DNA of 64,000 nucleotides, taken from the NCBI GenBank assembly GCA_014695195.1, contig JACJNW010000026.1, positions 1 through 64,000 on the forward strand, read 5' to 3'. Both the position numbers and the translations under genes were made by a program. This DNA is from Cyanobacteria bacterium FACHB-DQ100 (lineage in GTDB: Bacteria > Cyanobacteriota > Cyanobacteriia > Leptolyngbyales > Leptolyngbyaceae). Shown piece after piece: positions 7,415-48,980 of this stretch; position 1 is the stretch's first letter; the number at the start of each line of letters is the position of its first letter. A model generated the notes under the pieces. The model searched no databases and had not been told where the DNA came from. It saw nothing but the letters and a program-made list of their open reading frames with translations.

Positions 7415-8006
7415 AACCCGCTCCTTGCATGGGTCGATGATGCGTTAGCGAGTTCTGGGAAACTACTCGATCGAGCCGTCGGCTTGTTCCCCGAACCAGT
7501 TGCTTGAGCCTGAAAATCTGATTCTCTACCTGCTGACGCTCTTGTTCTAGCGCTTTTATCTGCTGCCCCCGAACAATTGCAGCTCGAACCTCGCCCACCG
7601 CTCCACGGCAAAGGTGCTTCGTCTTCACTTTGGGCTGTCCCGATTTTTTGCGATCGCCTGTCAGCCAGCGCAGTTGATAATAGGTGTACTGCTTACCGTT
7701 CTTCGATTTCGTGTACGTCTCGATCCAGCCATCTCGATTGATGTCACCTGCGATCATTACAGCTTGAATCGCTCCTGTTAGACGATCTCGTTCTTGCTGC
7801 AAACTCGTGAGTGCAATTAGATAATCAGGAAGCCAATCCAGTTCTGGGAATTCTTCGAGATTTAGCACCAGTGGAGTTCCCAGAACTGAGGGAAGAGCGG
7901 TCTGAAAACTCGGGCAACGATCGATGGCTTCAGAGGTAAAAATCTGCATTAAAAACTGACCTACGACAGCGGCAGGTTCCAGAATGAAGCGAGGGCGCGA
8001 TTCCAC
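7404..8006 (-). CDS. Hypothetical protein with central beta domain and C-terminal coiled coil
   Basis: Translated from a GTG start this gives 200 residues. The central segment GWIETYTKSKNGKQYTYYQLRW followed by a Lys/Gly-rich stretch resembles the small beta-rich domain common in cyanobacterial hypotheticals that often precede coiled coils. Residues ~145-175 (IKALEQERQQVENQIFRLKQLV) form a clear coiled coil. No catalytic motif is visible. It is the first gene of a two-gene unit with the winged-helix protein (11-bp overlap), which suggests a joint role in DNA metabolism of the replicon. The function is unknown. Confidence 0.55.
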   Translation of the reverse strand: MESRPRFILEPAAVVGQFLMQIFTSEAIDRCPSFQTALPSVLGTPLVLNLEEFPELDWLPDYLIALTSLQQERDRLTGAIQAVMIAGDINRDGWIETYTKSKNGKQYTYYQLRWLTGDRKKSGQPKVKTKHLCRGAVGEVRAAIVRGQQIKALEQERQQVENQIFRLKQLVRGTSRRLDRVVSQNSLTHHRPMQGAGYEP

Positions 8007-8055
8007 AGCCTTACGCTGGAGCGATCGCGCTTTCTAAGACAATTTCAAAACAGCG

Positions 8056-8397
8056 CTAAAACGGTAATGCAGCATCATGCAAGTCTTTGGAGACCAGCAC
8101 AATCCACAAGCCGTCGCCATAGCTCAGAGCAACGCTGCCAAAGCCGAAGCGTTCTTGGTCTCTTTCCCAAGATACGATCGACAAGAATGCAGAATCGAGA
8201 CTGGGACTTCGAGTAAAGGCAATCAACGAGGGGCAAGGTGGTGTAGAACGGCAACCCTCGACGTAGCCTTTGAGATAGTGCGGATTGGTTTGAAACTGTG
8301 GATGGGGAACGCGGCGATTTAGCCCATCTCGATAACCAGCACTGAAAAGTTGATCTGGGGCAGGGGATGTCACTTGCCGGAGATGTCTTGGTATCAT
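8056..8397 (-). CDS. Small hypothetical protein
   Basis: This 113-residue frame starts at ATG 8397. Residues 18-50 (FSAGYRDGLNRRVPHPQFQTNPHYLKGYVEGCRS) have the look of a repeated A/G-Y-x-x-G motif often seen in cyanobacterial small proteins. The C-terminus (GDGLWIVLVSKDLHDAALPF) is hydrophobic. A longer frame on the same strand (8075-8485) overlaps it but has a less protein-like, Ser/Arg-rich composition, so I prefer this one. No function is recognised. Confidence 0.4.
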   Translation of the reverse strand: MIPRHLRQVTSPAPDQLFSAGYRDGLNRRVPHPQFQTNPHYLKGYVEGCRSTPPCPSLIAFTRSPSLDSAFLSIVSWERDQERFGFGSVALSYGDGLWIVLVSKDLHDAALPF

Positions 8398-8672
8398 AGA
8401 TCATGTGTCTGTAAACGACATTTAGAGGGCGATCGCTTAGTTTTCGAGGACGGGGCGATCGCTTTCTCATTGGCTCCCTCTGCATTTTTCAACCAGGCTT
8501 GGGACTGGCTAAGGCTGCATTATTTGCAACTGAATTCTCTGGATAAAGTCAGGTTCTATTAGACTGATAAGGCTGAGTCTTGAGAGAACAAATGCAAGCT
8601 CTATTAAAAACAGCGCAGTCTCGGCATTGATAAGCCGCTAATTTTCTCGCTGCTTGTGCCATACCTTTCCCC
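8398..8672. other. Intergenic stretch with HIP1 sites
   Basis: No convincing gene is present. Two GCGATCGC (HIP1) octamers, typical of cyanobacterial genomes, occur near 8431 and 8456. A TA-rich segment near 8560 could hold a promoter, but nothing is specific enough to call. Confidence 0.5.
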
Positions 8673-9134
8673 CTATGCTTCACTGTAGGTTTGTCGGATG
8701 GCTTCTTCCCAAAGCTCTTTCGGAGCGCGGCGCACAACTTGCAATAATCCGAATGTTTCCAAAGAGAGATCTAACAAAGCGAAGGCTTCTGCCATGCTGC
8801 CGCCTAAATACCCACTTGATAGCTCCAGGTGTCCAGGAGATCGCTCCATAAACTCGTCGAACGTGAGCGGGTTTGATTCCAGTTGAATTCGAGGATTTAC
8901 AGCGTCAGGAATTGCGATGACTGATTGATATCGGTAGCCTGAAGGACTCGATTCACGATGATTCCACGTTAAAGAAACGCGATCATCTTCAATTTCTAGC
9001 TCATCACAGCTCTCGGCAAGTTGTCTGACTTCTTGGGCTGTCGTAAAGCCACCTCTGCCAAAGCTCAATTGGGCGGTTGTCGCGTGCTGATTCAGCCAAT
9101 TCTCTAACGTTTCTAAATCTGAGGGGGAAGGCAT
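8673..9134 (-). CDS. Hypothetical protein, acidic
   Basis: The frame is open further upstream, but the start is set at ATG 9134, which is preceded by an excellent ribosome binding site (AGGAGG, 7 bases upstream on the coding strand). The product has about 153 residues and is acidic, beginning MPSPSDLETLENWLNQHA. It contains WNHRESSPSGYRYQSVIAIP and a C-terminal helix (KELWEEAIRQTYSEA). I recognise no domain. The gene lies 46 bp downstream of the uma2 gene on the same strand, with one frame of overlap avoided by the chosen start. Confidence 0.6.
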   Translation of the reverse strand: MPSPSDLETLENWLNQHATTAQLSFGRGGFTTAQEVRQLAESCDELEIEDDRVSLTWNHRESSPSGYRYQSVIAIPDAVNPRIQLESNPLTFDEFMERSPGHLELSSGYLGGSMAEAFALLDLSLETFGLLQVVRRAPKELWEEAIRQTYSEA

Positions 9135-9180
9135 CTCGTAACCTCCTATAAAACTCTGCTCGCTGCTGACAGTAATGCGC

Positions 9181-9765
9181 TTATTGCGCGATCGCGTTGC
9201 GAAATTCTCGAAACGCATCGACTCTTGAGGTTTGAGCCATCAAAACACATCGAGCCAACAGGTCAATGTCAAGATCAATGAGTGTCGGGAGTTCGCTCCG
9301 ATCAATTCTTTCGTAGCCGCTGTCTCGCAGATGGTAGAGCGTAAAAACGCCATCTTGCCAGAACCAAACTTCAGGCACACTCAAAGCTTGATACCGTTCT
9401 AACTTGCTGGTTCCGCCACTGGTAAATACGACCTCAATTGATAAATCAGGCACAGGCTTCTTTTGCCCTAGCCAATAGGATTCATCTGCTTGAGCCGATG
9501 CAATTCCCTGCCGCTCCTGTGTCATTGAACCAGCAGGAATAAATTCAATTCCCCGCTCTGTAAGGAAAAGTTCGATAAGGAACCCAATGATTGTCTTGAA
9601 AAATTCGTGGTCTTCTCCAGGCATCAGAATCTCAATCGTGCCGTTGTAGTAGAACAGTCGCACACCCGGAGAGTTTTCAAAGCCTTGTTGAATCAGCTTG
9701 AACTGCTCCCAAGTGCGATCGTGATGAATAAGGTATTGGTCAGTGGTTCTGCTGAGTAGCTGCAT
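9181..9765 (-). CDS. Uma2 family (DUF820) PD-(D/E)XK endonuclease-like protein
   Basis: This protein of about 194 residues has the Uma2/DUF820 hallmarks: an N-terminal WEQFKLIQQGFENSPGVRLFYYNGTIEILMPG, then HEFFKTIIGFLIE, then the nuclease-fold core (KPVPDLSIEVVFTSGGTSKLERYQALSVPEVWFW) with the P-D-L-x-I-E-V and K motif of the PD-(D/E)XK fold. These proteins are abundant in cyanobacteria and their cellular role is unknown. The start is ATG 9765, with GGAGGAAA just upstream, rather than the ATG 18 bases earlier. A small ribbon-helix-helix gene precedes it on the same strand. Confidence 0.85.
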   Translation of the reverse strand: MQLLSRTTDQYLIHHDRTWEQFKLIQQGFENSPGVRLFYYNGTIEILMPGEDHEFFKTIIGFLIELFLTERGIEFIPAGSMTQERQGIASAQADESYWLGQKKPVPDLSIEVVFTSGGTSKLERYQALSVPEVWFWQDGVFTLYHLRDSGYERIDRSELPTLIDLDIDLLARCVLMAQTSRVDAFREFRNAIAQ

Positions 9766-9810
9766 TGCGAAAGTTTCCTCCATTGCTCAAAGCGATTTCG
9801 TTTGGCTTGG

Positions 9811-9984
9811 TCAAATCTTTCCCTCCTTCTCAGCCTGTTCGATGACTTGTTTAATTAGTCGTTCTAAGAAATTACTAACACTGCGATCTTCCAGAGCAGC
9901 TAAGCGCTCTAGCTTTTGCTTCAACTCCTCATCGAGATAGGTGGCGACTCTGGCTTTATCGGTGGGCACGTCAAATAAACACAT
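9811..9984 (-). CDS. Ribbon-helix-helix (CopG-like) small DNA-binding protein
   Basis: This 57-residue frame starts at ATG 9984 behind a GGAGAA ribosome binding site and ends at TGA 9811. The sequence RVATYLDEELKQKLERLA, then SVSNFLERLIKQVIEQA, is the beta strand plus two helices of ribbon-helix-helix repressors/antitoxins. It lies 45 bp upstream of the uma2 gene on the same strand and is divergent from the 10147 gene. The operator-like inverted repeats at 10058-10096 are in the shared upstream region, so autoregulation is plausible. Whether it acts as an antitoxin or partner of Uma2 is inference. Confidence 0.72.
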   Translation of the reverse strand: MCLFDVPTDKARVATYLDEELKQKLERLAALEDRSVSNFLERLIKQVIEQAEKEGKI

Positions 9985-10057
9985 CTCTGCTTCTCCATTG
10001 TCTACTTCAAACCAACTTTTAATCTAGGTAGATTACTTTTATTTACTTTATGCTACC

Positions 10058-10096
10058 ATATTCGCAAGCGAACGGGAAACGAATCGCAGCGAATAT
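10058..10096. promoter_or_regulatory. Inverted repeats in divergent promoter region
   Basis: ATATTCGC (10058-10065) is repeated inverted as GCGAATAT (10089-10096). The left arm is also part of the local palindrome TTCGCAAGCGAA (10061-10072). The site lies between the divergent ribbon-helix-helix gene and the HTH gene at 10147. A TTGACA (10099-10104) follows the right arm. This is a likely operator for one of the two DNA-binding proteins. Confidence 0.5.
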
Positions 10097-10146
10097 CTTG
10101 ACATCCCGTGACCTTGCCTGAATTTTGACGAAGGAGACTACGAACA

Positions 10147-11088
10147 ATGACACAAACGTCTGCTCCGCTTGACCCCACAACTGCTGGAGTCTTCGATCGA
10201 ATCGACCCTACGATCGCTCAAAATCGTTCTGACCTCCACTCAAAACCATCGGATACGAACGTCGCACCGCTCAAAAAACAAGACGGGTGCGACTCAGATA
10301 GCTCATGCGAATTGCCTGAATCGCCGCCCTCCGACGCTGATGACTCATCGAAGATTGAGCATTGGAAACCCGCAGACCCTCAATTCTGTAAAGAAATTGC
10401 CACGTACTACGGGCAGTCGAAACGCACAATTCAAAAGTGGTTTGTCGATTTACGAGAAATTGCGCCCTGGTTCAGTGAATCCGAGTTACGACTGGAGGAC
10501 GATCGCTACACTCCGCTTGCCGTTGAACTGCTTGGAGAGCGCTACTTTGCGGGTTCAAAAAAGAAGTGGGCGCAAACATTACTGGATCGATCTGCCGATC
10601 AAATTGAAACATGGACTGCGGCTCAATCCGATCCAGCGCTTCATCCTGATGTGTTGCCTCCCCAAGATGCCCCTACCCCAATGAACGGATCTAATGAAGC
10701 GCTCTGGTGCAATCGTGGAATGGTTTTACATTTCGGCTCAGATCTCGATCTCCCGTCAATTCCTGGGTTAATCCCGATCACCGGAGACGCTGCTTATTTA
10801 GCTCAGATGCAGCAACGACTCCAAACCTTTGAGCAATTGCAGCAGCAAGCGATCGCACAAATGCACACTCAATATGAGCAGGCCCAAGCGCTCAATGCCC
10901 AGTATCACGAAGCGATGAGCCTCAGCGATCAGCTACTCCTGCAAGAGTTTCAACTCAGAGGAGTACAACTCGGCTACGCTGCTCTGCAAGTCAAACAAGA
11001 AGCCTTCAAAGCAACGATTCAGGCGGCGGAAGCTGGAACCCTATCCACGCCGGGAAAGCCTCAACCCGAAACGACTCGATCTTTATAA
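10147..11088 (+). CDS. DNA-binding protein with helix-turn-helix and long coiled coil
   Basis: This 313-residue protein begins at ATG 10147 with GAAGGAGA upstream. Residues 1-70 are Ser/Asp/Pro-rich and disordered. Residues ~78-105 (FCKEIATYYGQSKRTIQKWFVDL) form a helix-turn-helix with a clear recognition helix. The C-terminal third (QMQQRLQTFEQLQQQAIAQMHTQYEQAQALNAQYHEA) is a long Gln-rich coiled coil, probably for oligomerisation. It is the first gene of the rightward 10-20 kb island and may be its regulator. I do not recognise the family by name. Confidence 0.65.
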   Translation: MTQTSAPLDPTTAGVFDRIDPTIAQNRSDLHSKPSDTNVAPLKKQDGCDSDSSCELPESPPSDADDSSKIEHWKPADPQFCKEIATYYGQSKRTIQKWFVDLREIAPWFSESELRLEDDRYTPLAVELLGERYFAGSKKKWAQTLLDRSADQIETWTAAQSDPALHPDVLPPQDAPTPMNGSNEALWCNRGMVLHFGSDLDLPSIPGLIPITGDAAYLAQMQQRLQTFEQLQQQAIAQMHTQYEQAQALNAQYHEAMSLSDQLLLQEFQLRGVQLGYAALQVKQEAFKATIQAAEAGTLSTPGKPQPETTRSL

Positions 11089-11294
11089 GCCTAATTCCGG
11101 ATAAGGGATACTCGCTTCAGCATCGCAGATTTCACGAAAACGACAAGCTTTTGCTGGAAAAGATACATCGATGTTCCGCGCTAGTGCAAGGCTCCGTTAT
11201 TTTGCGCTATCAACATCATTGCTGATGCCGCCTTTGGTTTTTTTGACTCGCATCGCCCGCCCAACAGAAGAGACTATACCTCGCTTTATTTGCA

Positions 11295-11332
11295 CTACTT
11301 GTAAAGCAATGGTGCTCTACTTGCAAAGCAAT
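11295..11332 (+). promoter_or_regulatory. Tandem operator-like direct repeats
   Basis: CTACTTGTAAAGCAAT (11295-11310) and CTACTTGCAAAGCAAT (11317-11332) differ at one base and are spaced 22 bp apart, about two helical turns. They sit 43 bp upstream of the 11375 gene, so a regulator would bind both on the same face of the helix. The rest of 11089-11374 shows no gene. Confidence 0.55.
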
Positions 11333-11374
11333 TCAGTCCTATAAAAACACGCCCTTTCGTCTCATTGCTTCACC

Positions 11375-11695
11375 ATGAATGCAGACACCCGCGCCTTGAT
11401 TTCACAGCAATACCAGACGATCGAAACCGTGCGGACGCAGCCGATGGACGGAATGGCCTATTGCCAAAAATGGGTGCCTGTCTTCTACGGACTGTACCCC
11501 GGCGAATCGGGTTTCAAGTCCAAGTGCCTTGCAGAACTATCGCGGGTGACAGGCACGCAAGCAGACACGATTCGAGCCACCTGGGGCACCAACTTCCAGA
11601 AGACACCGGGGTATGCAGCATTACTGCTACGCACGACCGATTTGCTGAACCAAGTAATCGTCGGAATCCGGCTTCCACCCAATTTTCCAAATTAA
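11375..11695 (+). CDS. Small hypothetical island protein
   Basis: This 106-residue protein starts at ATG 11375. It has a compact helical look, with YCQKWVPVFYGLYPGESGFKSKCLAELSRVTGTQADTIRATWG followed by PGYAALLLRTTDLLNQVIVG. The middle part could be a small helix-turn-helix (ELSRVTGTQADTIRATW). An overlapping frame (11365-11703) is rich in His/Arg/Pro and is a shadow. It is preceded by tandem operator-like repeats. The function is unknown. Confidence 0.55.
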   Translation: MNADTRALISQQYQTIETVRTQPMDGMAYCQKWVPVFYGLYPGESGFKSKCLAELSRVTGTQADTIRATWGTNFQKTPGYAALLLRTTDLLNQVIVGIRLPPNFPN

Positions 11696-11768
11696 ACGCA
11701 TGATTCCATAGCAAAACGCTTGCTCAGTCAAAATTGGTCATTTTTAATAGCTGCATGAGCGCTGCAGC

Positions 11769-11836
11769 CTGCAATATTGCAGACCTAGCGATGCAATCTC
11801 GCTGAAACTCAACGGTACTGTCTCTGATGCAGAGAC
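11769..11836. promoter_or_regulatory. Two palindromes upstream of the 11906 gene
   Basis: CTGCAATATTGCAG (11769-11782) is a perfect 14-bp palindrome. GTCTCTGATGCAGAGAC (11820-11836) is a 7+7 inverted repeat with a three-base spacer. CTGCA/TGCAG motifs are repeated through the whole interval 11750-11885. This pattern suggests a multi-site operator or a centromere/origin-like binding region. Confidence 0.45.
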
Positions 11837-11905
11837 GCAGATAGCCTGAACCCTCTCTGCAACGCGAACGCACTATCCCTGCAACCATTCCGAACCGACC
11901 ATGAA

Positions 11906-12199
11906 ATGGAAGCCCAGATCATACAATCCTGCCCCGATGATTTCATGCTTACGCCTGAATTTGAGCCCACGCGCAAGCAGTTGGCAATTCTCGCCGACTG
12001 CTCGGTGCGGACGATCGACTACGACGTGGCGTTGTTAAAGCACCTCGTGCCCAAAGAGTTCAAATACATCGCTGGGCAAGAGATATTCACCCACGAGCAA
12101 AAACGAGCCATCTTGGGCGTGCGCAAGCTGTTCAAGAAGTTCAACAACGCCGCCCAGGTCAGAGATCACATCCTTAGAAATGGAGTCCCTCTCGTATGA
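11906..12199 (+). CDS. Small HTH-like regulator of the island
   Basis: This 97-residue protein contains PTRKQLAILADCSVRTIDYDVALLKHLVP, a good helix-turn-helix with a MerR/excisionase-like feel, followed by FTHEQKRAILGVRKLFKKFN. It overlaps the next gene by four bases (ATGA at 12196-12199). The palindromes just upstream suggest it may regulate itself. The precise family is not recognised. Confidence 0.6.
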   Translation: MEAQIIQSCPDDFMLTPEFEPTRKQLAILADCSVRTIDYDVALLKHLVPKEFKYIAGQEIFTHEQKRAILGVRKLFKKFNNAAQVRDHILRNGVPLV

Positions 12200-12950
12200 G
12201 ACGTGAAGAATCCGCCGAATCTCTCGGGATTCAAATCCTGCGCTTAAACGCGATCGCCGAAGCGCTCGGCGTTCCTTATGACGCCATCGAGCTAGATGAA
12301 CCGCTAATCGAAGAAATTGGGGTCATTGCCGCCTATATGAACGAACACGCTGTCAGTGACCCGGCGATGGCTATCCAAGCTGTGCAGCTGAACCGCAATG
12401 CCGCCAATATGCCGCAAACTTTCGGACAAGAGAGCCATCATCAAGCCGACATGGAGACCGTACATCAAGATGTCGCCAACCGCTGGGTAACCATCCAGGT
12501 CGCCAGCAACATCGGCTTAGGATTGGCGATTAACAACGGGGGCGTTGACCCCAAGTACCTAACCCCGGATCACCAGCAAGCCCTGAGCGATTCAGAAAAT
12601 TTTGCCCGATCGATGGTCAACCAGCGATTCAAAGGCACAGCCACTTTTTTGAAGCAGGTGGCGACCGGCAGGCGGCAATTGGAAATGCCCGTGGTGCAGA
12701 ATTCACCGAGGGTTATCTCGCAGGCCTCCGAAGCGGTGCCCTCATCAGCGCGATCCACCGCGCCGGACAAGCTCAAACCCAGCTTGCCTACTTGAAGACC
12801 GGACAGCACTTGTTCTATGGGGTCGTGCTGACGACGCTCGGCGCTGTCCTCTTCGTTCCCTCGATCGCGTTTTCGCTACCGGTTTATCTCAGCGGGGCTG
12901 CGATCGGTCTATTAACGCGATTTTGTTTCACCTCAACCGGAGAACAGTAA
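12196..12950 (+). CDS. Island protein with membrane C-terminus reached by a -1 frameshift (candidate slippery site)
   Basis: The start frame (ATG 12196, coupled to the preceding TGA) encodes 199 residues and stops at 12795, its last 45 residues being Ser/Pro-rich and unnatural-looking. The -1 frame is open from 12549 to TAA 12948-12950. It lacks any ATG or GTG, yet encodes a convincing C-terminus: GAEFTEGYLAGLRSGALIS, then two hydrophobic segments (LFYGVVLTTLGAVLFVP and SIAFSLPVYLSGAAIGLL). At 12645-12651 the in-phase sequence is AC-T TTT TTG, a canonical -1 slippery heptamer, and slipping there joins the frames into a protein of about 251 residues. Either programmed frameshifting makes short and membrane-anchored forms, or a T was lost or gained in the homopolymer. 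The function is unknown. Confidence 0.55.
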
Positions 12951-38062: not shown

Positions 38063-38455
38063 ATGCCGAGACAGCGAAAATCGCCGACTGGAGAATTGAG
38101 AACGCTGGCAGTTCCGGTGTACATGAGTTCAACAGAGCGGCAAAACTTGGGAGAGCGAGCAGGCTCACTGAGCCTGAGTGAGTATCTATTGATGGCGGGA
38201 TTAGGGCAGCACGTTCCCCAGCGGCGGCAACCGCTTCCAGTTCCCGAACTCAATCGATTGACCTACTTAGAGTTAGAGAAAATTGGTCGCAATCTCAATC
38301 AAATTTCTAAAGCTTGTCATGTTGCTATTCGTGACGGGCGAGGCTGCAATGTGAACAGCGATGAAATAGAAGCGATCATTGCAATGATTCGACAGCTTCG
38401 ACTCGAAGTGATTGCTGCAACGATCGACGTAGAAACTGAAGATGATGAGTTGTGA
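38063..38455 (+). CDS. mobC: MobC-like relaxosome accessory protein
   Basis: The chosen ATG 38063 (MPRQRKSPTGELRT...) gives 130 residues; longer in-frame starts exist but the extension looks unnatural. MobC-type features are the basic N-terminus, the ribbon-helix-helix-like start (RTLAVPVYMSSTERQNLGERAGSLSLSEYLL) and the C-terminal signature LTYLELEKIGRNLNQISKACH of bacterial mobilisation proteins. MobC binds oriT and helps the relaxase nick. Its TGA overlaps the relaxase GTG (GTGA at 38452-38455), so the two are coupled. Confidence 0.82.
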   Translation: MPRQRKSPTGELRTLAVPVYMSSTERQNLGERAGSLSLSEYLLMAGLGQHVPQRRQPLPVPELNRLTYLELEKIGRNLNQISKACHVAIRDGRGCNVNSDEIEAIIAMIRQLRLEVIAATIDVETEDDEL

Positions 38456-40269
38456 TCGGTAAAATTGTTCAAGGCAAAAGTTTTCGCGGTCTTCTGAATT
38501 ACTTACACGGTAAGGAAGGAGCGCAATGCGTCGGCGGTAATATGGCAGGCGAAACGCCGCGCGAATTAGCCGCAGAATTTCGAGTGGCAAGAGCATTAAA
38601 TCGTCGTCTCAAGAAGGCAGTTTGTCATGTCTCTTTGTCTTTACCTAAGCATGAACGGTTAGACAATGAGCAATGGTTAGCGATCGCGGCAGATTACATT
38701 ACAGAAATGGGCTACGAGAACTGTCAATATGTGGTGTATCGGCATCACGATCAAGACCATGATCATGTTCACCTCGCAATCTGTCGGATTCGGATCACAG
38801 ATGGCAAGACAGTTAACGACTCCTGGGAGAAACGTCGAGCCGAAACACTGATCCGATCGTTAGAGCAGCAATATCAGCTTGAGAGTGTTCAGCCGAGTTG
38901 GGAGAAACTCGAAGCGGCTCCGACAACAGGAGAAATGCGGCGGTTCGAGCGAACGGGAGAACTGCCAGTACGAGTCCGGCTGCAAGCTCAGATTGATCAA
39001 GCGGCTGACGAAAGTTTGTCGATCGCACAATTTATTTATGAGCTAAAAGATCAAGGGATTGGGATTCGGCTTCGCATTGCTCAAAATCAACGCATTACAG
39101 GAATTAGCTATTGCTTCGATGACATTGCCTTTAGCGGCAGCAAACTCGGTCGAGCTTACACTTTTCCAGGACTTCAAAAGCACAAGGGACTCCACTATGA
39201 CCACGCCACAGAATTTGAGGCAACTTGCCAAGCAGCAGACACAACCGCACCAAGAGCAGGGATTGATGCAGCCATTGTTGCAGAGTTTGAGCGAATCGCT
39301 GAACGCCTTGGAAGCTCGATTACACAACCTAGAGACAGAGTTGATCGAAACCAAGCAGTATCTGAGTTTTCTACAACAGATTCATCAAGAACTGGTCAAC
39401 TGCCAACGGTGCTTAAGTCAGCAGAACCAGAATCAGCAACAAACGAACATCGAATTATCCCAGATCAATCAGTATCTATCCCATCAGACTCAAATCGACA
39501 GCAACCAGTTAGAGCAGCTAACTCGCATGAGTCAAGAATTGGCGTTGCTCAAGAACGAGACGATCGCAGTGGGGCAAAATCAGGCAGTGATTCACCGATC
39601 GTTCCACGACTTCAACCAATCGTTTCTAGTTTTGCAGGAGCGACTGACCAATCTCGAAGACAGGACGGGACAACGATTAGCAACACTGACGCAACAAACC
39701 GAGCGGATTCACCAAACGATTCCGAACAAAACAGCGTTTCCTCTGAAGCTATTTCTGAGCGGGGAAGTCGTGACGTATCGCGGGATTCTGGGAACGCTGA
39801 CTTTCTCCGGAGTGCTGATGGCAGCGATCGTTTGGATTCTGCTACAGCTTCTACCGTCAGCCAATCAGAATCGAGTTCATCAACTGGTGAACAGCAGCGA
39901 GATCCGACTCGAACGACTCGAACAGGGACAGCAGCAAATTCTGGACAAACTGGGGATTCAACCACAAAAGAAATAAAGCTCAACGAAGATCAGCAGCGGT
40001 GGAAACGCTACAGCTTCGGCGTTCAAGCTAGCAATACCGTGAAGCTGAATCAACTCGTGGCAAGACGGGCATTTGAAGATGGGCAATCCCCGCAGGCGAT
40101 CGCACGAATGTTAGTTTACAGCCCATTTGTGCAAGAGATGGTTGGAAAACACAGGAGTTCAGAGACAATTCAAGCCTACATCCGTCAAACCGTTCATGAA
40201 GCCTGCCAGAAAGAGCAACAGCATCAGCGGAAGCTGCAAAAGCAGCGAGCATTCAACTTGGAAACTTAA
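38452..40269 (+). CDS. mobA: Relaxase (MobA, MOBP-type)
   Basis: The relaxase nicks oriT and stays covalently bound to the transferred strand. GTG 38452 starts a 605-residue protein. Residues 1-250 are the relaxase domain: FRGLLNYLHGKEGA contains the likely catalytic Tyr17 (motif I), and the three-His motif III is H98-H99-D-Q-D-H103-D-H105-V-H107 (VYRHHDQDHDHVHLAIC). Residues ~255-515 are a Ser/Thr/Asp/Arg-rich, low-complexity linker. The C-terminal ~90 residues (WKRYSFGVQ...ARRAFEDGQSPQAIARMLVY...EACQKEQ) form a small helical domain. A second gene is read in another frame over the linker (39197-39976). Confidence 0.88.
   Translation: MIGKIVQGKSFRGLLNYLHGKEGAQCVGGNMAGETPRELAAEFRVARALNRRLKKAVCHVSLSLPKHERLDNEQWLAIAADYITEMGYENCQYVVYRHHDQDHDHVHLAICRIRITDGKTVNDSWEKRRAETLIRSLEQQYQLESVQPSWEKLEAAPTTGEMRRFERTGELPVRVRLQAQIDQAADESLSIAQFIYELKDQGIGIRLRIAQNQRITGISYCFDDIAFSGSKLGRAYTFPGLQKHKGLHYDHATEFEATCQAADTTAPRAGIDAAIVAEFERIAERLGSSITQPRDRVDRNQAVSEFSTTDSSRTGQLPTVLKSAEPESATNEHRIIPDQSVSIPSDSNRQQPVRAANSHESRIGVAQERDDRSGAKSGSDSPIVPRLQPIVSSFAGATDQSRRQDGTTISNTDATNRADSPNDSEQNSVSSEAISERGSRDVSRDSGNADFLRSADGSDRLDSATASTVSQSESSSSTGEQQRDPTRTTRTGTAANSGQTGDSTTKEIKLNEDQQRWKRYSFGVQASNTVKLNQLVARRAFEDGQSPQAIARMLVYSPFVQEMVGKHRSSETIQAYIRQTVHEACQKEQQHQRKLQKQRAFNLET
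39197..39976 (+). CDS. Coiled-coil membrane protein overprinted inside the relaxase gene (MobB-like)
   Basis: ATG 39197, preceded by AAGGGACT, opens a 259-residue frame lying wholly within the relaxase gene in a different phase. It has a long coiled coil (LSESLNALEARLHNLETELIETKQYL, QQIHQELVNCQ, SNQLEQLTRMSQELALLK, LVLQERLTNLEDRTG), one strong transmembrane helix (TLTFSGVLMAAIVWILLQLLP, ~residues 201-221) and a short coiled tail (SSEIRLERLEQGQQQILDKL). The relaxase frame over the same bases is low-complexity Ser/Thr/Asp. This mirrors plasmid RSF1010, where membrane protein MobB is encoded within mobA and aids transfer. A similar role is inferred. Confidence 0.75.
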   Translation: MTTPQNLRQLAKQQTQPHQEQGLMQPLLQSLSESLNALEARLHNLETELIETKQYLSFLQQIHQELVNCQRCLSQQNQNQQQTNIELSQINQYLSHQTQIDSNQLEQLTRMSQELALLKNETIAVGQNQAVIHRSFHDFNQSFLVLQERLTNLEDRTGQRLATLTQQTERIHQTIPNKTAFPLKLFLSGEVVTYRGILGTLTFSGVLMAAIVWILLQLLPSANQNRVHQLVNSSEIRLERLEQGQQQILDKLGIQPQKK

Positions 40270-41199: not shown

Positions 41200-41236
41200 A
41201 GGGAGTTGAAGAGCATTTATCCTATTTCAACTCCCT
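41200..41236. terminator. Hairpin between convergent genes
   Basis: AGGGAGTTGAA (41200-41210) and TTCAACTCCCT (41226-41236) form a perfect 11-bp stem that overlaps the last codons of the giant leftward gene (TAA at 41217-41219). On the + strand a run of six T follows ten bases later. It probably ends transcription from one or both sides. Confidence 0.5.
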
Positions 41237-44200
41237 GGCAGGACTTTTTTGGTGGTACTGATTGCGCTGGCTGAACTTCTGAAGCTTGCGGGTTTTGACG
41301 AGCGGTTGCATGAGTATGCGCTTGCTGCTTATGGGTCTGAAAATCTTGCTGCATAGCAGATTTTGCTTTATCGGACAAAGCCTCACCATCGACAAAGGCT
41401 CTCGCAACTTCGGTGATCCGTTTAAGGTAGTTCGGTGCTCGTCCTAATTCCCCAGCAACTCGATGCCACTTCCAGAGTGATCGCAATGTCTGTTTGTCGC
41501 CTCGATCGTATTCTCCAGCTTTTACTTTGTCGGAATGATGCTCAATTAGAAGTCGATCGTTCCAATCCTTTCCCTGCGCTGGAGTCATCCGCGTAATACC
41601 GGGAAGCATTTCTGCGAAACGCCACGCCATCTTCTCACCGGGTTTGTCTGCGTCGAATGCGGCGATTACCTGTCCACCTTGATCAAGAATTTCCTGAAGA
41701 GCAGTTGTTGGAATTGCGCCAGAGCCATCGGTTGATAAATAAATCGATACGGTTGTTGCGTCAGGTGACTTTTCTTTTTCCAACACTGCTAGAGAAATGG
41801 CATCGATCGGTGATTCAGTCAGAACAACACGATTAACTTCGCCATTTGCTGATCTCAACCAGAACCACCCGTTTTCACGAGAAGAACCAGGAGCTAATCC
41901 ATGAAAGGCGTGTTCTGAGTCGCGTGTACCGCGCAGACTTGCACCTGTAACTTCGTGGCGCGACCATGCTTGATCGTTGTGCTGGTCTCCATACCGTAGA
42001 AAAACTGCATTACGATGATCATCTGCATAAATTAGCCCTGTCTCATGGAAGCGATCGATCCAGGTTACGGGCAGTCCTCGCGTTTCAATAAGGTACTGTC
42101 GTACTGCTGTCCAATGTTCTTCATTGCATGGCGGTAATTCCAGCGAACGAGGTTCTTTTTGCGTCAAGGATGATTGAGCTTGGACAGAAGCGGGTAGCGT
42201 TTGTCCTGAAAGCCACTGAACTGCTTCTTTGAACTCAACTTTGCGGACGTGCATAACTAAATCGATCGCGCCTCCACCTCCTTGGTCAGCTAACCAATCC
42301 ATGAATTTGCCGTCATTGATGCTGATGATGTGTCCTGCATCCTTCCACTTGTTTTTGTCACGTCGATCTTTCTGAAGACCCAAACTGGCTGCTACGGCTT
42401 CTAAATCAAAATTTCTTACCTCTTTAGCGAGTGCTGAAATGTCGATCGAGCTTGTTTGATTAGTATCTAAGCGAGGTTGAAGGAAGTGAGCAGAAGAGCC
42501 AGGTTGATCCTTGGCAATGGTAGTTTGAACTTCCGAATCACGTTCTGTTGAAGTCAATGTTTCAGGGATTTGTGAGGTCGTGTAATCGCTTTCCCAAGTT
42601 GGGTCGTGTCCTTGAACATCTACCTGATAGTCCCTCTCGACTTCAGAATAATCGTTTACATCAAAGAGAGTGGTTTCTACTTCAGTGCTAGTTTCAGATG
42701 CTTGCTCTGGTTCAGAGGCTTGACTCGATTCGGTCTCTAGTGAATGTCCGCTCGTTGATAACTCAGTGTGAACGAATGCTTCTTCTGGCTGGTGTATTCC
42801 TTGATTGACAATAACGCTGTGCCCTTGTGATTCTAAATAGGTTGTGAATCGCTCGATCGCTCCTGACCAGGCTGGAATTGATATGAAGGGGATTCGTCCA
42901 ACAGTTCCGCCAGCATCTCGGCTTGTTAAGGTTAAATTTAATGCGGTCGCGATCGTATCCGCATCCTCAAAGTAAGCCGTGTAAAAATCACCAGAAGCAG
43001 AGCGCTGAAAGACTAAAGCATCGGGATGTTGGTCTTTAACGCTCAGGTAGTCGATCGCAAATGCAGCAAGATCGGTGCGATCAATCTTGTTATTGACGGA
43101 CTCCGGTGTTTGTAGAGTTGCATCTTCTGTTTTTGCCTCAGTTTCCGATGATTGTTGATACTTCTCGATCGCGGATTGGACTGCTAACCCTGTATTTCTT
43201 CGTCCAACAACGGGTTCTAAGATTTCGGCTAACCGCTCCTGTAAGAGTGAATGAGAAGTATAGGTATAAAAAGCCCTTGTGATTGCATTGACTTCTTCTG
43301 ACTCTAAACGAATGGTGTTGCCGTCTCCGAACTCAAGCAGTGAGTTATCTTGCCTTGTTTCAACTACATTCCTTGGGTCTTCTGCTACAACTTCGGTAGG
43401 CTGGACTGGTTGAACCTCTCTTGCTTGACGAGCTGCCTCTGCAAATCCTTGATCGAGAATGTTGCGGGAAAACAACTGAGCAAAGCTTTTATCGTATGAT
43501 CTCAACTCCCCACCCCTTACTGGATTCTGCACCGCTACTTCCCGTAGAGTTAGATCTCCTGTTGGGGCTAGATTAAAAACCATTTCAGTATCGATGAAAA
43601 GATCACCGTAGCTATCTTCTAGCCAATGAATGAAATGAATAACCCCATCGTGCCGCTCGATCGTCAGTGGAATGTAAGGAGCGTTTTCAATTTGCAGATA
43701 AAACTCTGAATCTGCCATCACTGCCTCACTCAGCCCAGCTTGCTCCAGAAATCTTGCAACGTTTTTCTCTGCTCGTCCAGACTGATATTTTGTAGCAGCG
43801 ACTCGAAGCGATGCGGGATTCTCCGGTTCCAGCATCGGTTGCGGTTGGCGTGAGAAATCATCGAGATGTGGCTCAACCAGAATCAGTGGAATGGTTTGTT
43901 CAGGTTGGGAGTTTGCTGTCTGCTGTTCTAATTTCTTTGGTGTGGCAAGCTGTTCTTGCTGAGTTTGATTGTGAACGGGTTGTACGATCGTTAGCTCTGG
44001 CAATTTGATATCTAATAAATCTCGCGCTTGGTCTTTATAATCGAAGGCTGCCAACGTCCATCGCTTCTGCTGAAGGATGACTGAGAGAACTTGATCAATA
44101 CGCTCTTCTGGCACAATCAATTCCATTCGCTCATGAACTGAGTAAAACTCGTTGCCTGCGGCTGCAATAATGTCTGAATCCAGGGAATACTGGTCTCCGG

Positions 44201-47200
44201 CTCCGGACTTCAGCGTTTGCAAAACAAATCTAGTTGCACTGCTATTGCCTAATCGCATGGATGCCTGAGTGCGAACTGTAAAGAGTTCATCTAATGTTTT
44301 GACTGATGCTTGATACTGGGTTGCATCGGTGAGAAATGCTTTTACGTGAGCGGGTTCTTTGAATGCAACAGGTTCCGATCGGAGTGCCTCTTGAATGTCG
44401 AATCCCGCAGGCATAATTAGTCCTTGGACGACATCGCCGCGATCGTTCGTGTAATTCAGAAACCTTCCGTTTGGATACTTCTCGTATGCTCGAATTGGAT
44501 TGCCCGTAAAAATCTGCATCTCGGTGCGCTGATTCTGCTGTTGGCGCAAGTCGAAGGCTTCGTAGATATCTTCTCCACTCCAGTTCGTTTCCTGCCGCAT
44601 TACTTGCGTCATTGCATCCTGCTTACCGCGATTAAATTTTGAAAGCGGGATCGTTAATTGTTGACAGCGATGATCGACTAGAACTTGAACTTTCCAGTTT
44701 GTGGGTGCGATCGGGCTTCCTTTTTGTCCTTTCTGACTGATGCGCGAAACAACGCCATAAAAGACATTTCCTTCCGGTGACACAACTCTTACAGGTGTGC
44801 CTGGTGGTGTTTGTCTCAAAACTTGTGTGAGATGCCGCATTTGGTCGTTAAGCTTGTCGGTGAAACGATCTTTTGCACCTGGTGTGCTTTTCGTCAGCAG
44901 CATTTCTCGACGATACGATCGCGTTTCTTCTCTCAACTTGGTTAACAATTCTTGCGATCGCTGATTAGCAATTTGAGCGACGGCTTCAAAATCATGGTCA
45001 GCCACATTCTCAACCGGAGGTAAATCAAGACTTTGCCGGACGGCATCAATCACCTGAAGTTGACTAAACGGCTTGACCGGAACCTTAGCATTAACAACTT
45101 CTAGGGAAACTGCACCTGTAAACTCACTTTTAACGCCACTATCATCGGGAATGGCCTCCATTTGCGCGATCGTTTGAGCATCTAAATCAAGTTGATCCGC
45201 TTTTAAGACGCTTTCACCCATTGCTTCTTTTTGAGCGATGAGTTCTCTTGTTTCGTTTTCAATGAGTGTGTAAAGTTCTTCTTGCTCCTGAATGGTGAGC
45301 AGAGGGATGCGCCCGGTTACGCGTTTAATCACAGCAATCTCAGAATCATCACTGCCGACCTCTAACGGGTAACTCAATTTTGCTTGTAATTCATAATCCT
45401 CTTCGAGAAGTTCCCGAACGACTTCTTCACCGTAGACGTTCATGAAATCTACGACGTTTGCAACAGACATCTGCGATTCACGCGATGCGGTGACATTAGC
45501 GTTGAGTTCTGCCATTTTCTTTGCCAGCAGTGCCCCTAACCGTTTCTCGGCAGGCAAATCGCTCATCAACAAATCAAACCGGGGTTTGACAACTTGCCCG
45601 TAGCGATCAATGCGTCCGAACAATTGCATAACGAGATTGATGTCTCGTTCCGCTTGTGCAATAATCAGCCGTCGCGGTCGCTGATCTGCAAACTTTTCGG
45701 AAGCGTGAAGGTTGATTCCTGTAGCTCCAGAGCGATTCAGAATAACAGCATCTAAATCCCCTCGGTTGAACTGGTTGATAATATCGACTCGCGCCTGTGG
45801 GCTGGTTTCGCTACTAGAGCGGAGTCCATAGCTCATTCCTCCCGCATGGCTATATTCAATAATGTGGCTGCGTCCGGTGATTTCATCGACTCGATAGCCT
45901 TCTTGAGTTAATCGCCAACGGATGTAATCGATCGAGCTAAGGGGAATGCTAGACAAGTCAGTTTCGTCGATTAACTCTTGAGCTTCTTCATAAGCAGCAA
46001 CGGCATCAGATCCAATCTCTTCATCGGTTAAGCGACGGCGAGTTTTTTTGCCCCAGCGGTCAGTTTCAATCACGTCTCTGGAGCGTTCTAAATATCGCTC
46101 TAGTACGTTCCCAAAAGTGATACTAATTGATTGCCCTGGTTCAATGCTATTTTCCTCGGTGTACCATTCGATGAAACTACCCATCGTGTTGGCAACCCCG
46201 ATTAAGGGCTTTTCGCCTCGTTCAATCGTTGCGATCGCTTCTTGTACTGCGACTTCTGCTTTCTGTGCCAGTAAGCTTTGATCGATCGCATTGTGCATTA
46301 ACGAGGTGAAATTTGTAGATCTCGCTCCAGCCGCTCCGGTCGTGCCATCCTCACTCAAAGCTTTAGCTTCAGCTTTCAGACGTTTCTTAAGTTTATTTAC
46401 GCCTGCTTGTTTGGCATCGTCGAAATCGTTGATTGCTCTCATTACAGCAGAAATGCCTTCTGCAATATCTCGATCGACTGGAACTATTTTCGCTGTAAAA
46501 GAGATACCTTCCATCGAGCGGCTGCGCCGGAGCATTTGTCCAGAGGCAACAAATTTTGTCGCAAACATCTGCTGAAGTGGAACCCCACCCGCTTTGAGAA
46601 TCATTTCTAAGCTGTAGAGATTATTGACAGCATATCGAGCGTCACTACGCCGCGCATAAAGATCGACAACACCTGCATTTTTAATCGCAGTTGCAGACAT
46701 GAAGGTTGCTCCAGCGCTCTTATCAACCAGTTCTCGGGCAAATTCGGCACGACTGGAATAAATGCCACCATCATCTTGAGATTTATCGCTTCTCCCTCCA
46801 GCTTCGTGAGCTTCATCAAAGATAAAAACAGCTTGAGGCGCGATCGCGCGAAAGAACTCCCGCCGAAATGGTTCTTTCTGTTGCACAGTTTGAAGCTGTG
46901 TGTAGGTCGTAAAGATTGCATCGTAGTTGCCGAGTCCCTGCTGCATAATCTGTCGCATTTGCTCGGTTTGAGTGGCAGCATCACCTGTTAGTAATTGCCT
47001 GCCGTCTTCTAAATCGAGAGTTAATTTGTTGTCGGTTGCGAAGACGCGCATTCTGGGCTTACCGATGTCTGCTAAATCTGTCAGCATCGACGTATAAAGA
47101 TTCGCCTTTTGCGTCACGAACACTGGAATATGACCTTGACGGGCAGCATCGACAATATTGGCTGCACCAAAGCGTCCTTTGCCGTTTCCAGTCTTGTCAC

Positions 47201-48980
47201 CATTCAGAAAGATGTTGCCGCGATCGCGTTGATGGAAAGCAAGCGCGATCGCATCGATTTGCTCTGCATAAAGATACTGCCACATCTGTTCGGTAGAGTC
47301 ATAGCCTAACCGTTGGCAGACAAACTCATCGATATCACCAACCGCTTGTTCAAGATGATCGAGAGCAATTTGAGCAGCGGTTGCCATATTCGTTGGAATC
47401 AGATTATGTGCCGATTGTCCCTTTGATCGAGAAATGTAAGAAACATCAAAAGTTTGAGTTGCTACGATCGGTTCAGTGGAATTGTTAGAAGATTGTTCTA
47501 CCATTGCTTGATTTCCATTCGTTTCAATGCTGGAAGTTGTTGCTAAAAATCTGCGTTCATGCCGTAAGTCAGGGTCGCTAACCAGTTCTCTAATGTGATT
47601 TTGTTGTGTTCGTTCAGCCACACTTTCTGCATTTGTGGCTCGGTCGTGGGTAGCGTGATCGGAAAATCTATCGATAGCTTTTGCATTAGGGTTTCGTTGC
47701 GATCGATTAATGTCTCTGCCCAGTCGTCCATCCACTCGGGCAGCGGAACGAGTTCCCCAGTATCTTGCTCGGTTAGTCTCGGTGCTTCCTGATATGACAA
47801 AAGATTGTTGAGTACGATCGTCAATCTGCGGTGTGTTTGTTCCTGTGTTTCTTGAGTTTGTTCCATCCAGCTTTGAATCAACCACACGATGCGTTCTGAT
47901 AGAAGCGCTTTGTATTGCGATCGTGTCATTTGCCTCATTTCGGCTGGAAGTCTGATGATGAACAATTCCGAGTCGTTCGACTGCGCTGGTCTCCAGATCT
48001 GGGGATGTTTGGTGTAATTGTTCATCGGGAATTAACTCCTTGAGTTGAGAGAATGACTTGTAGATGCCTGGAACATCAGCAGCAGGTAGAATTCGTTGAG
48101 ATTGCCCTCTTCCTTCAATCACAATCAAATCAATTGGAAATCCTGCGCCTTGCTTGCGATAAAGTGAACCCCAAATAGAAAAATGCTGTATAACCTTGTA
48201 TTGCTCATAAAGGGTGGCGTAGAAGCTTCGAGATTCAAGCGTGTTGTACCGCCCAGATCTTCTTTCCTCGTCGTCTCCGAGTTTGCCACCTAGAATGAGG
48301 ACAGCACGACCGTCATTTTTAAGGGATTGCAAGGCGAGTAGCGCGATCGCTTGATCAACTTGGATAGTTTTTCTGGGACTGCCTAGAATTTGAAATCGTT
48401 TCGTCTGACCTTCAACTTTGACCACACCAAACGGCGGATTACAAATCACGCGATCGTGCAGTTTTCCTGGTTGATACTCGGCTGCATCACATCTTGTGAC
48501 GGTAAAGCCTTGTGCCCGAAGATCGGCGGCTCGATCAACATTAATTTCATTCACTGTTACGTTTGCAGGATTTGCTGCAATTAACAATGCTCCATGTCCG
48601 GCTGTAGGCTCATATACCGTTGTTCCCGCATCAATTTTTGCAAGTACCGACGCAAGAAACGCGATCGGAATTGGGGTGCTATATGCCTGCTGAAGCACGC
48701 TTGTAGATGAGCGAACATTTAGAACGGGTTGACGACTGTGTAAGTTGACCAAACGATCATAAGCTTCGTAAGTTGTTGCTGATGTTTCAACGATTTGCCG
48801 AGCTGCTCGAACAATTCCGGCTTCAACCGATTCATCCACCAATTTCGCTAAGGCTGTTCCAGGTAAAACAGGCTGATGAAGAATCAGAGAGGCCTGCTGA
48901 CGAGCAGCGACGATCGTTGAAAAGTGACCTCCTTCCATGAAATGGTTTGCAAAATAACTAACGAGTTGTGGATTGCTCAC
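41217..48980 (-). CDS. Giant DNA methylase - strawberry-notch helicase - Toprim primase-like protein
   Basis: This is a 2587-residue protein. Residues ~100-260 form an N6-adenine-type methyltransferase (TVYEPTAGHGALLIAANP; catalytic NPPF near 180 in VICNPPFGVV). Residues ~330-500 are a disordered linker. From ~560 a strawberry-notch-like superfamily-2 helicase follows: Walker A-like GDKTGNGKGR (~597), FIFDEAHEAGG (~722), TFMSATAIKN and a C-terminal helicase half ending INLVMQLFGRIDRYGQ. A long poorly characterised middle follows. The last ~450 residues hold a DUF3991-like domain and a Toprim domain (VVLTESPIDAISL ~2390; IAAFDADKPGEK ~2440). Such fusions occur on conjugative elements and phages (compare P1 DarB); roles in strand entry, priming or anti-restriction are inferred. 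It is the last gene of the transfer operon. Confidence 0.82.
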   Translation of the reverse strand: MSNPQLVSYFANHFMEGGHFSTIVAARQQASLILHQPVLPGTALAKLVDESVEAGIVRAARQIVETSATTYEAYDRLVNLHSRQPVLNVRSSTSVLQQAYSTPIPIAFLASVLAKIDAGTTVYEPTAGHGALLIAANPANVTVNEINVDRAADLRAQGFTVTRCDAAEYQPGKLHDRVICNPPFGVVKVEGQTKRFQILGSPRKTIQVDQAIALLALQSLKNDGRAVLILGGKLGDDEERRSGRYNTLESRSFYATLYEQYKVIQHFSIWGSLYRKQGAGFPIDLIVIEGRGQSQRILPAADVPGIYKSFSQLKELIPDEQLHQTSPDLETSAVERLGIVHHQTSSRNEANDTIAIQSASIRTHRVVDSKLDGTNSRNTGTNTPQIDDRTQQSFVISGSTETNRARYWGTRSAARVDGRLGRDINRSQRNPNAKAIDRFSDHATHDRATNAESVAERTQQNHIRELVSDPDLRHERRFLATTSSIETNGNQAMVEQSSNNSTEPIVATQTFDVSYISRSKGQSAHNLIPTNMATAAQIALDHLEQAVGDIDEFVCQRLGYDSTEQMWQYLYAEQIDAIALAFHQRDRGNIFLNGDKTGNGKGRFGAANIVDAARQGHIPVFVTQKANLYTSMLTDLADIGKPRMRVFATDNKLTLDLEDGRQLLTGDAATQTEQMRQIMQQGLGNYDAIFTTYTQLQTVQQKEPFRREFFRAIAPQAVFIFDEAHEAGGRSDKSQDDGGIYSSRAEFARELVDKSAGATFMSATAIKNAGVVDLYARRSDARYAVNNLYSLEMILKAGGVPLQQMFATKFVASGQMLRRSRSMEGISFTAKIVPVDRDIAEGISAVMRAINDFDDAKQAGVNKLKKRLKAEAKALSEDGTTGAAGARSTNFTSLMHNAIDQSLLAQKAEVAVQEAIATIERGEKPLIGVANTMGSFIEWYTEENSIEPGQSISITFGNVLERYLERSRDVIETDRWGKKTRRRLTDEEIGSDAVAAYEEAQELIDETDLSSIPLSSIDYIRWRLTQEGYRVDEITGRSHIIEYSHAGGMSYGLRSSSETSPQARVDIINQFNRGDLDAVILNRSGATGINLHASEKFADQRPRRLIIAQAERDINLVMQLFGRIDRYGQVVKPRFDLLMSDLPAEKRLGALLAKKMAELNANVTASRESQMSVANVVDFMNVYGEEVVRELLEEDYELQAKLSYPLEVGSDDSEIAVIKRVTGRIPLLTIQEQEELYTLIENETRELIAQKEAMGESVLKADQLDLDAQTIAQMEAIPDDSGVKSEFTGAVSLEVVNAKVPVKPFSQLQVIDAVRQSLDLPPVENVADHDFEAVAQIANQRSQELLTKLREETRSYRREMLLTKSTPGAKDRFTDKLNDQMRHLTQVLRQTPPGTPVRVVSPEGNVFYGVVSRISQKGQKGSPIAPTNWKVQVLVDHRCQQLTIPLSKFNRGKQDAMTQVMRQETNWSGEDIYEAFDLRQQQNQRTEMQIFTGNPIRAYEKYPNGRFLNYTNDRGDVVQGLIMPAGFDIQEALRSEPVAFKEPAHVKAFLTDATQYQASVKTLDELFTVRTQASMRLGNSSATRFVLQTLKSGAGDQYSLDSDIIAAAGNEFYSVHERMELIVPEERIDQVLSVILQQKRWTLAAFDYKDQARDLLDIKLPELTIVQPVHNQTQQEQLATPKKLEQQTANSQPEQTIPLILVEPHLDDFSRQPQPMLEPENPASLRVAATKYQSGRAEKNVARFLEQAGLSEAVMADSEFYLQIENAPYIPLTIERHDGVIHFIHWLEDSYGDLFIDTEMVFNLAPTGDLTLREVAVQNPVRGGELRSYDKSFAQLFSRNILDQGFAEAARQAREVQPVQPTEVVAEDPRNVVETRQDNSLLEFGDGNTIRLESEEVNAITRAFYTYTSHSLLQERLAEILEPVVGRRNTGLAVQSAIEKYQQSSETEAKTEDATLQTPESVNNKIDRTDLAAFAIDYLSVKDQHPDALVFQRSASGDFYTAYFEDADTIATALNLTLTSRDAGGTVGRIPFISIPAWSGAIERFTTYLESQGHSVIVNQGIHQPEEAFVHTELSTSGHSLETESSQASEPEQASETSTEVETTLFDVNDYSEVERDYQVDVQGHDPTWESDYTTSQIPETLTSTERDSEVQTTIAKDQPGSSAHFLQPRLDTNQTSSIDISALAKEVRNFDLEAVAASLGLQKDRRDKNKWKDAGHIISINDGKFMDWLADQGGGGAIDLVMHVRKVEFKEAVQWLSGQTLPASVQAQSSLTQKEPRSLELPPCNEEHWTAVRQYLIETRGLPVTWIDRFHETGLIYADDHRNAVFLRYGDQHNDQAWSRHEVTGASLRGTRDSEHAFHGLAPGSSRENGWFWLRSANGEVNRVVLTESPIDAISLAVLEKEKSPDATTVSIYLSTDGSGAIPTTALQEILDQGGQVIAAFDADKPGEKMAWRFAEMLPGITRMTPAQGKDWNDRLLIEHHSDKVKAGEYDRGDKQTLRSLWKWHRVAGELGRAPNYLKRITEVARAFVDGEALSDKAKSAMQQDFQTHKQQAHTHATARQNPQASEVQPAQSVPPKKSCQGVEIG
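47543..48025 (-). CDS. 160-residue protein overprinted inside the giant gene
   Basis: ATG 48025 follows AAGGAG ten bases upstream on the coding strand and opens a 160-residue frame out of phase with the giant gene. The product looks like a normal soluble protein: MNNYTKHPQIWRPAQS, ELFIIRLPAEMRQMTRSQYK, ERIVWLIQSWMEQTQE, then TGELVPLPEWMDDWAETLI and NKITLENWLATLTYGMNADF, with seven Trp. In the same bases the giant gene encodes a Thr/Ser/Arg/Asn-rich linker, a sign that the nested frame is the one under protein-level selection. The function is unknown. The 160-residue length is ten times what chance would favour for this composition, though codon statistics have not been computed. Confidence 0.65.
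   Translation of the reverse strand: MNNYTKHPQIWRPAQSNDSELFIIRLPAEMRQMTRSQYKALLSERIVWLIQSWMEQTQETQEQTHRRLTIVLNNLLSYQEAPRLTEQDTGELVPLPEWMDDWAETLIDRNETLMQKLSIDFPITLPTTEPQMQKVWLNEHNKITLENWLATLTYGMNADF

Follow-up and report, generated by a model that had tools for sequence, protein, structure and literature searches.

Evidence for a conserved small gene nested within giant methylase-helicase genes of cyanobacterial mobile elements

We analyzed a small open reading frame (ORF) that lies inside a giant methylase-helicase gene in a 64,000-nucleotide stretch of DNA from Cyanobacteria bacterium FACHB-DQ100 (Leptolyngbyaceae; GenBank GCA_014695195.1, contig JACJNW010000026.1, positions 1 to 64,000), referred to here in its entirety as the window. 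The locus very probably represents a conserved dual-coding unit, in which the frame of the giant gene runs through a complete small gene that is read one base ahead of it and sits between the methylase and helicase parts. A preliminary description of the window, made from the DNA letters alone, had proposed a genuine overlapping gene at this position, and both the conservation of the ORF and the selection acting on it support that proposal. Its coordinates, its length of 160 residues, its ATG start and the AAGGAG with a 10-base spacer were confirmed, and the ORF and the giant gene are both on the minus strand (Table 1). The low-complexity linker described for the giant protein and the tryptophan-rich composition described for the nested product (7 tryptophans in 160 residues) were likewise borne out. 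Across 58 nested loci, the same codons yield 4.6% tryptophan and 36.7% VILMFWY residues when read in the nested frame, and 0.1% and 17.4% when read in the giant frame.

The nested gene is widespread in cyanobacteria and its arrangement is constant. A search within the order gave matches in 11 of 42 genomes; the one in G038 was a chance match to a histidine kinase (L011, the same locus as L029), and we removed it before all counts. With a class-wide profile built from 15 sequences and a match threshold of E 0.001, the nested protein was matched in 47 of 388 cyanobacterial genomes. We classified 66 loci together with their flanks, namely 63 from the class-wide search and three more from the order-level search. 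In 58 of these the small gene is nested and the giant frame is open across the overlap, seven copies stand alone, and one locus (L101 of G294, at about 6913-12891) has both frames broken towards the end of the overlap. There, the nested frame continues in frame with the helicase and the giant frame stops just past the match; G294 also carries an ordinary copy (L086). Every nested locus has the small gene in relative frame +1, between methylase and helicase. Looking for the nested frame in other giant genes was the check that the preliminary description had suggested, and the outcome was the opposite of the two findings it had named as damaging: homologues of the product exist, and the frame is not broken by stops in close relatives. 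Tree distances of the nested protein and of the helicase are correlated, with a Spearman coefficient of 0.93 (56 loci; the values are pairs of distances and are not independent).

Carriers include Leptolyngbya NIES-3755, Leptolyngbya sp. Prado105, Picosynechococcus PCC 7002 (plasmid pAQ6), PCC 7117, PCC 7003, NIES-970, Chroococcidiopsis CCNUC1 (on a plasmid) and Gloeobacter morelensis. Seven of the annotated plasmid records examined contain a nested copy, and six of them, including that of pAQ6 from the model strain PCC 7002, list no gene at this place; the gene tables used were incomplete, so that an unlisted gene is not proof of its absence from the original record. The seventh, G. morelensis pGMOR1 (L133, 5411-5860), lists the small gene (WP_230844304.1) with the giant gene shortened for it. 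In PCC 7003 (L017) the giant gene is truncated, with a recombinase gene and others downstream, and the nested gene is still open. On pAQ6 (NC_010480.1) the nested ORF occupies the complement of about 100507-101013 (L016, 9965-10471), and its ATG overlaps a GAT (Asp) codon of the giant frame.

A second search started from the helicase, scoring at most two candidates per genome and leaving out the contig-edge fragments G007:C64 and G021:C648. It matched the strawberry-notch helicase at E 1e-20 in 53 of the 388 genomes, despite a reported paucity of polyvalent proteins in cyanobacteria (PMC5512222, in the part of that text available). We retrieved seventeen helicase loci that the first profile had missed: seven have a +1 ORF at the same place, two have a stand-alone gene just upstream, and eight could not be judged. 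Four of the seven +1 ORFs match the family hidden Markov model (HMM), and three are recognized by profile comparison alone (probability 93). The HMM E-values for these helicase-found loci come from single-sequence searches with a profile that contained L114 and are therefore flattering, and the profile-comparison E-values apply to a single comparison. Among the judgeable loci, we found no methylase-first cyanobacterial giant gene without the ORF.

We next consider the substitutions. They were scored for what they change in each of the two frames, following the approach of OLGenie (PMC7531306, as described in the available part of its text), using a script of our own and not OLGenie itself. For 284 of 1653 pairs (3-25% divergence), omega was 0.15 and 0.09 in the nested frame and 0.87 and 0.52 in the giant frame within the overlap, a count that covers 9331 classified differences and sets aside 9752 in multiply changed codons. 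The nested identity exceeds the giant identity in 284 of 284 pairs, and in single pairs the nested omega lies under the giant omega in 13 of 13. Since the 284 pairs are phylogenetically non-independent and dominated by one clade, we also compared 10 disjoint pairs from different clades with all differences classified, and in the overlap the nested omega was lower than the giant omega in 10 of 10. In the flanks, which served as controls, no pair had a +1 omega below the giant omega: 0 of 10 for the helicase part and, among informative pairs, 0 of 8 for the methylase part, where one of the ten pairs was short of data and another lacked the region. Three features of these counts weaken the case: the large share of differences set aside, the dominance of one clade, and the +1 omega taken alone, which is also low (0.29-0.55) in three flank comparisons. 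Because of the last, only the comparison of both frames is telling, and by that comparison constraint changes frame at the nested gene.

The length of the ORF is by itself weak proof, and as far as sequence can tell it is conservation that decides. When the giant gene was recoded synonymously, 1.7% of trials for the window kept the nested frame open, and the mean over the 58 loci was 3.5%. The helicase part, too, has a +1 frame (ORF 46607-46984), of 126 codons in the window, 127 in NIES-3755 and only 86 in Prado105. A chance open frame across a compositionally odd linker, without a product, would account for figures of this kind at a single locus, and we reject it as extremely improbable on the selection pairs, synonymous recoding, the openness of the giant frame and the flank controls, because the same frame and place recur in 58 loci with the nested omega under the giant omega, both flanks show the reverse, and homologues exist that stand alone.

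How the small gene is expressed can be approached through its start. Upstream of the chosen ATG, 42 of the 58 nested loci have AAGGAG and 53 have some Shine-Dalgarno (SD)-like motif; as starts were chosen with an SD preference, the SD counts are partly circular, as is the finding of ATG in all 58 loci, and we treat the SD counts as supporting and not as independent evidence. Where the giant protein has Lys-Glu at the SD site, 42 of 48 cases use AAG GAG, and the codon usage of the giant gene predicts 16.3. We propose that ribosomes on the giant frame would pass through the small gene and make an unstructured linker of it, and that other ribosomes may initiate inside the giant gene at AAGGAG...ATG. 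The product of such internal initiation would be a separate protein of about 138-175 residues, acidic, tryptophan-rich and probably helical for the most part.

A +1 ribosomal frameshift giving a fusion of the methylase with the small protein, in place of a separate protein, has some resemblance to recommend it. prfB has a known +1 frameshift with an SD-like element upstream, and here too the relative frame is always +1 with such an element upstream. Frameshifting into the nested frame is disfavoured by a stop in that frame that, in 38 of 58 loci, falls no more than five codons upstream of the ATG; in the window, the stop nearest upstream (Table 1) rules out that the product extends in frame from farther upstream. 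The spacing from SD to ATG suits initiation, and the stand-alone homologues have an ATG or GTG of their own from which to start. We regard the frameshift as very unlikely, and favour a separately initiated product.

Scarcely better placed, and still improbable, is an arrangement of three genes (methylase, small gene and helicase) with internal helicase starts, in which the giant frame across the overlap would be unused. It would agree with the pGMOR1 record, where the helicase begins at the end of the listed small gene, with Persicobacter, which has methylase and helicase as separate ORFs, and with the amino-acid constraint on the giant frame in the overlap, which is weak and near-neutral by omega. 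What speaks against it is the openness of the giant frame. When nested proteins were given random synonymous codons, the giant frame was open in 0.12% of trials (mean 0.0012 per locus), and it is observed to be stop-free in 58 of 58 loci; the pGMOR1 giant frame, too, is open through the overlap (1979 codons). The seven stand-alone copies have 1-18 stops in the equivalent frame. The 58 loci are related and are not 58 independent events, and several distinct clades show the open giant frame. On this comparative evidence both frames are kept, and the nested frame is under purifying selection. It is possible that some helicase is made from an internal start in addition to the giant protein.

Open +1 frames at the same place also occur outside cyanobacteria. 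In Bacteroides phage BS-TP4 and 14 related IMG/VR contigs, a frame of 110-140 codons lies just before the helicase in 15 of 15 cases; the viral locus L155, which stops short of the region, is excluded from the 15. For 19 of 105 pairs in this phage group, the nested omega was 0.42 and 0.21 and the giant omega 0.95 and 0.48, and the nested identity was above the giant identity in 19 of 19. AlphaFold modelled the phage-group nested product (12 IMG/VR-contig sequences) with a mean predicted local distance difference test (pLDDT) score of 90.2 and a predicted template modelling (pTM) score of 0.85, a predicted confidence that one would not expect of a non-coding frame. Searches of the model against PDB and BFVD gave no fold match at E 0.001, and the single chain found by VIA-align (SurA, Z 2.8) is not meaningful. 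The cyanobacterial and phage-group products share place and frame and appear similar in the order of predicted secondary structure, the cyanobacterial model being of low confidence. Homology between them was not detected by profile comparison (hhalign probability 0.5), so that a single family common to both is, on their sequences, unproven. The cyanobacterial-type nested protein was not found in phage records (tblastn with the nested product of the window, E 0.01) or in IMG/VR, in scans that reach close relatives only. In a Thalassospira plasmid giant gene, a candidate nested ORF (L134) gave a profile-comparison probability of 2.7 with the cyanobacterial family, and no convincing relatives of it besides itself were found among plasmids; from its sequence, L134 is only suggestive of a nested gene.

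The preliminary description had also raised the possibility that the nested product is a stand-alone gene elsewhere, and this proved correct. Four genomes of the window's family carry stand-alone copies (L019 to L022) of ~190 codons, with a shared N-terminal extension (RYRPILR-like) and differing neighbourhoods, and L106 and L107 are further examples. An adjacent form occurs in Leptolyngbya boryana NIES-2135 (L135, 5351-5854; like L114 of G017), where the small gene forms an ORF of its own immediately upstream of a giant gene that begins with the helicase, and likewise in L128 (3686-4213) and L129 (3564-4040). In these giant genes the order is swapped, with the helicase first and the methylase match farther down. 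The small gene thus holds its place beside the helicase with or without the overlap.

These forms bear on how the overlap arose. In a FastTree tree (midpoint-rooted, support values unread), L019 to L022 and L107 branch within the nested lineages, a placement that would imply that they escaped from the overlap. Stops in the giant-equivalent frame are fewer than expected in L107 (1 against 4.6, P 0.04); this is not so for the other six stand-alone copies. L114, L128 and L129 could fit the opposite order, with the overlap arising later than a separate gene. The preliminary description had small genes being placed over existing linkers, and this part of it did not hold up as worded: the giant frame is near-neutral and the small gene constrained in the overlap, so the odd linker may equally well have arisen as a by-product of translation through the small gene.

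The role of the product is a matter for more tentative statements. Searches of Pfam, NCBIfam, PHROGs, PADLOC and PDB sequences gave no convincing match for the nested product; the best matches were PADLOC PDC-M02A (E 0.0068), in Pfam and for the product of the window PUA_2 (0.08, below its cut-off), and in the PDB a de novo designed protein (0.099). The net charge of the nested products is -8 to -22 in 58 of 58, and that of the phage-group frames is -7 to -20 (n = 15). DNA-mimic proteins are acidic, and Ocr and ArdA are antirestriction proteins of this kind. The role we favour, although we hold it at well under even odds, is that of a partner of the methylase-helicase that would protect incoming mobile DNA, as an accessory or antirestriction factor and perhaps by mimicking DNA; we suggest it because the small gene stays beside the helicase even where it is not overlapped, with the methylase near the other end of the giant gene.

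An alternative about as likely as this partner role is that the product acts independently, as a selfish or regulatory factor (one for host takeover, say), with no physical link to the giant protein, and is kept since the overlap hinders its loss. In its support, stand-alone copies occur in genomes without a helicase match at E 1e-20; set against it are the position directly upstream of the helicase where the genes do not overlap, and tree distances that track those of the helicase. We consider such a factor a serious possibility, short of a probable one.

Several observations weigh against a dual-coding unit with a dedicated partner protein. The giant frame is interrupted outside the overlap in L061, L062, L087 and L099. 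Structure prediction of the cyanobacterial product (two sequences) reached a pLDDT of 39 and is unusable. Stand-alone copies are less acidic, at -12 to +2 (mean -6.9, one at +2), so that the acidity is partly an effect of the frame. G016, G028, G040, G051 and G166, which have stand-alone copies, are not among the 53 genomes with a helicase match at E 1e-20 (G041 lay outside that search); the protein can therefore exist alone, which speaks against an obligate partner. No plausible nested gene was found in the giant genes of Pseudomonas putida, Vogesella, Bosea, Methylorubrum, Cupriavidus, Shewanella, Acinetobacter, Alteromonas, an Acinetobacter phage or P1 darB, and these negatives are weak for Bosea, Methylorubrum, Shewanella and Alteromonas, where tblastn did not place the methylase, and for P1 darB, where the boundary is unmapped. 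The nine proteobacterial-type loci and P1 darB indicate that methylase-helicase proteins need no nested gene in general.

A broader reading, for which we hold only limited confidence, is that of an old dual-coding cassette in mobile elements of at least two phyla. The methylase-first giant genes of cyanobacterial plasmids and of the BS-TP4 phage group would then all carry, out of frame between the two enzymes, a gene for an obligate partner of an undescribed family, and the overlap itself would be selected, because one locus and one transfer deliver both enzyme and partner and neither is lost alone.

In the window, the giant gene sits in a transfer region with a relaxase, a T4 coupling protein and a TrbI-like protein (Table 1). 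Its protein contains an NPPF motif and has an adenine methylase fused N-terminally to a superfamily 2 (SF2) ATPase, as expected of a DarB-like polyvalent protein. Domain matches are AAA_34 (2.8e-13) and Helicase_C_4 (8.8e-21), and N6_Mtase reaches merely 0.0041, under its cut-off. A MutS domain I match (2.2e-12) occurs at residues 1977-2068.

Table 1. Positions of the nested genes, their host gene and associated sites in the FACHB-DQ100 window.
Feature	Position	Strand	Remarks
Nested gene	47543..48025	-	160 codons + stop; frame +1 relative to giant gene; supported by homologues and selection
AAGGAG Shine-Dalgarno-like site	48036..48041	-	10 bases ahead of nested ATG; giant codons AAG GAG (Lys-Glu)
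TAA in nested frame	48032..48034	-	Two sense codons upstream of nested ATG
Giant gene	41217..48980	-	2587 codons: methylase (NPPF), strawberry-notch helicase (AAA_34, Helicase_C_4), DUF6908, MutS_I-like, DUF3991, Toprim
Methylase part of giant gene (query)	48021..48800	-	Residues 61-320; ends where nested gene begins
Helicase part of giant gene (query)	45201..47393	-	Homology query region
Second nested ORF	39194..39976	+	Frame +1 in relaxase gene 38452-40269; companion case, not main finding

The second nested ORF, in the relaxase gene, matches two relatives at 85 and 87% by the search (84 and 87% by our own count). In these two pairs its omega was 0.17 and 0.21, and that of the relaxase 0.75 and 1.00. 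Its product looks by eye like a coiled-coil protein with a hydrophobic segment. As this ORF is conserved and constrained, the replicon carries two such genes, which agrees with the statement in the preliminary description that it does so repeatedly; the relaxase case passes the selection test in two pairs.

Overlapping genes are known as a kind, and the host gene is known as a class. The DNA methylase-helicase dyad of polyvalent proteins, with phage P1 DarB as archetype, has been described (Iyer et al., 2017; PMC5512222, available part), and the window gene shares with it an adenine-methylase-like domain fused to a strawberry-notch SF2 ATPase and the setting in a conjugation region, here with relaxase, TrbI-like and coupling proteins nearby. 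Neither "overlapping" nor "overprint" appears in the available part of that article, whose account, in the same part, has polyvalent proteins scarce in cyanobacteria. In P1 darB, frames of at least 70 codons in the strand's two other frames are only Arg/Ser-rich (the domain boundary is unmapped). RSF1010 mobB, within mobA/repB (PMC2200642, available part), is likewise a small gene in another frame inside a large transfer gene and provides a precedent for the relaxase case of the window; the host of the main nested ORF is a methylase-helicase and not a relaxase, and no sequence relation is claimed. The overlapping genes of E. coli O157 (PMC9927249, PMC7103648, available parts) resemble ours as long bacterial coding overlaps missed by annotation, but are antisense in the parts of those reports available, whereas the cyanobacterial overlap is same-strand and is conserved in several families of cyanobacteria.

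DNA-mimic antirestriction proteins such as Ocr and ArdA are similarly small, acidic and carried on mobile DNA, yet no sequence match to the nested product was found in the libraries searched. In the open-access literature, we did not find the nested family, its place in this machine or its breadth.

Long same-strand overlaps in bacteria are usually doubted, and here one is documented in dozens of loci by sequence comparison with internal controls. With this finding, anti-restriction machines of a known class gain a hidden component, and there are natural cases in which the same genes occur in adjacent and in overlapped arrangement. As a plasmid of PCC 7002 carries one of these overlaps, their origin and persistence become testable in a tractable strain.

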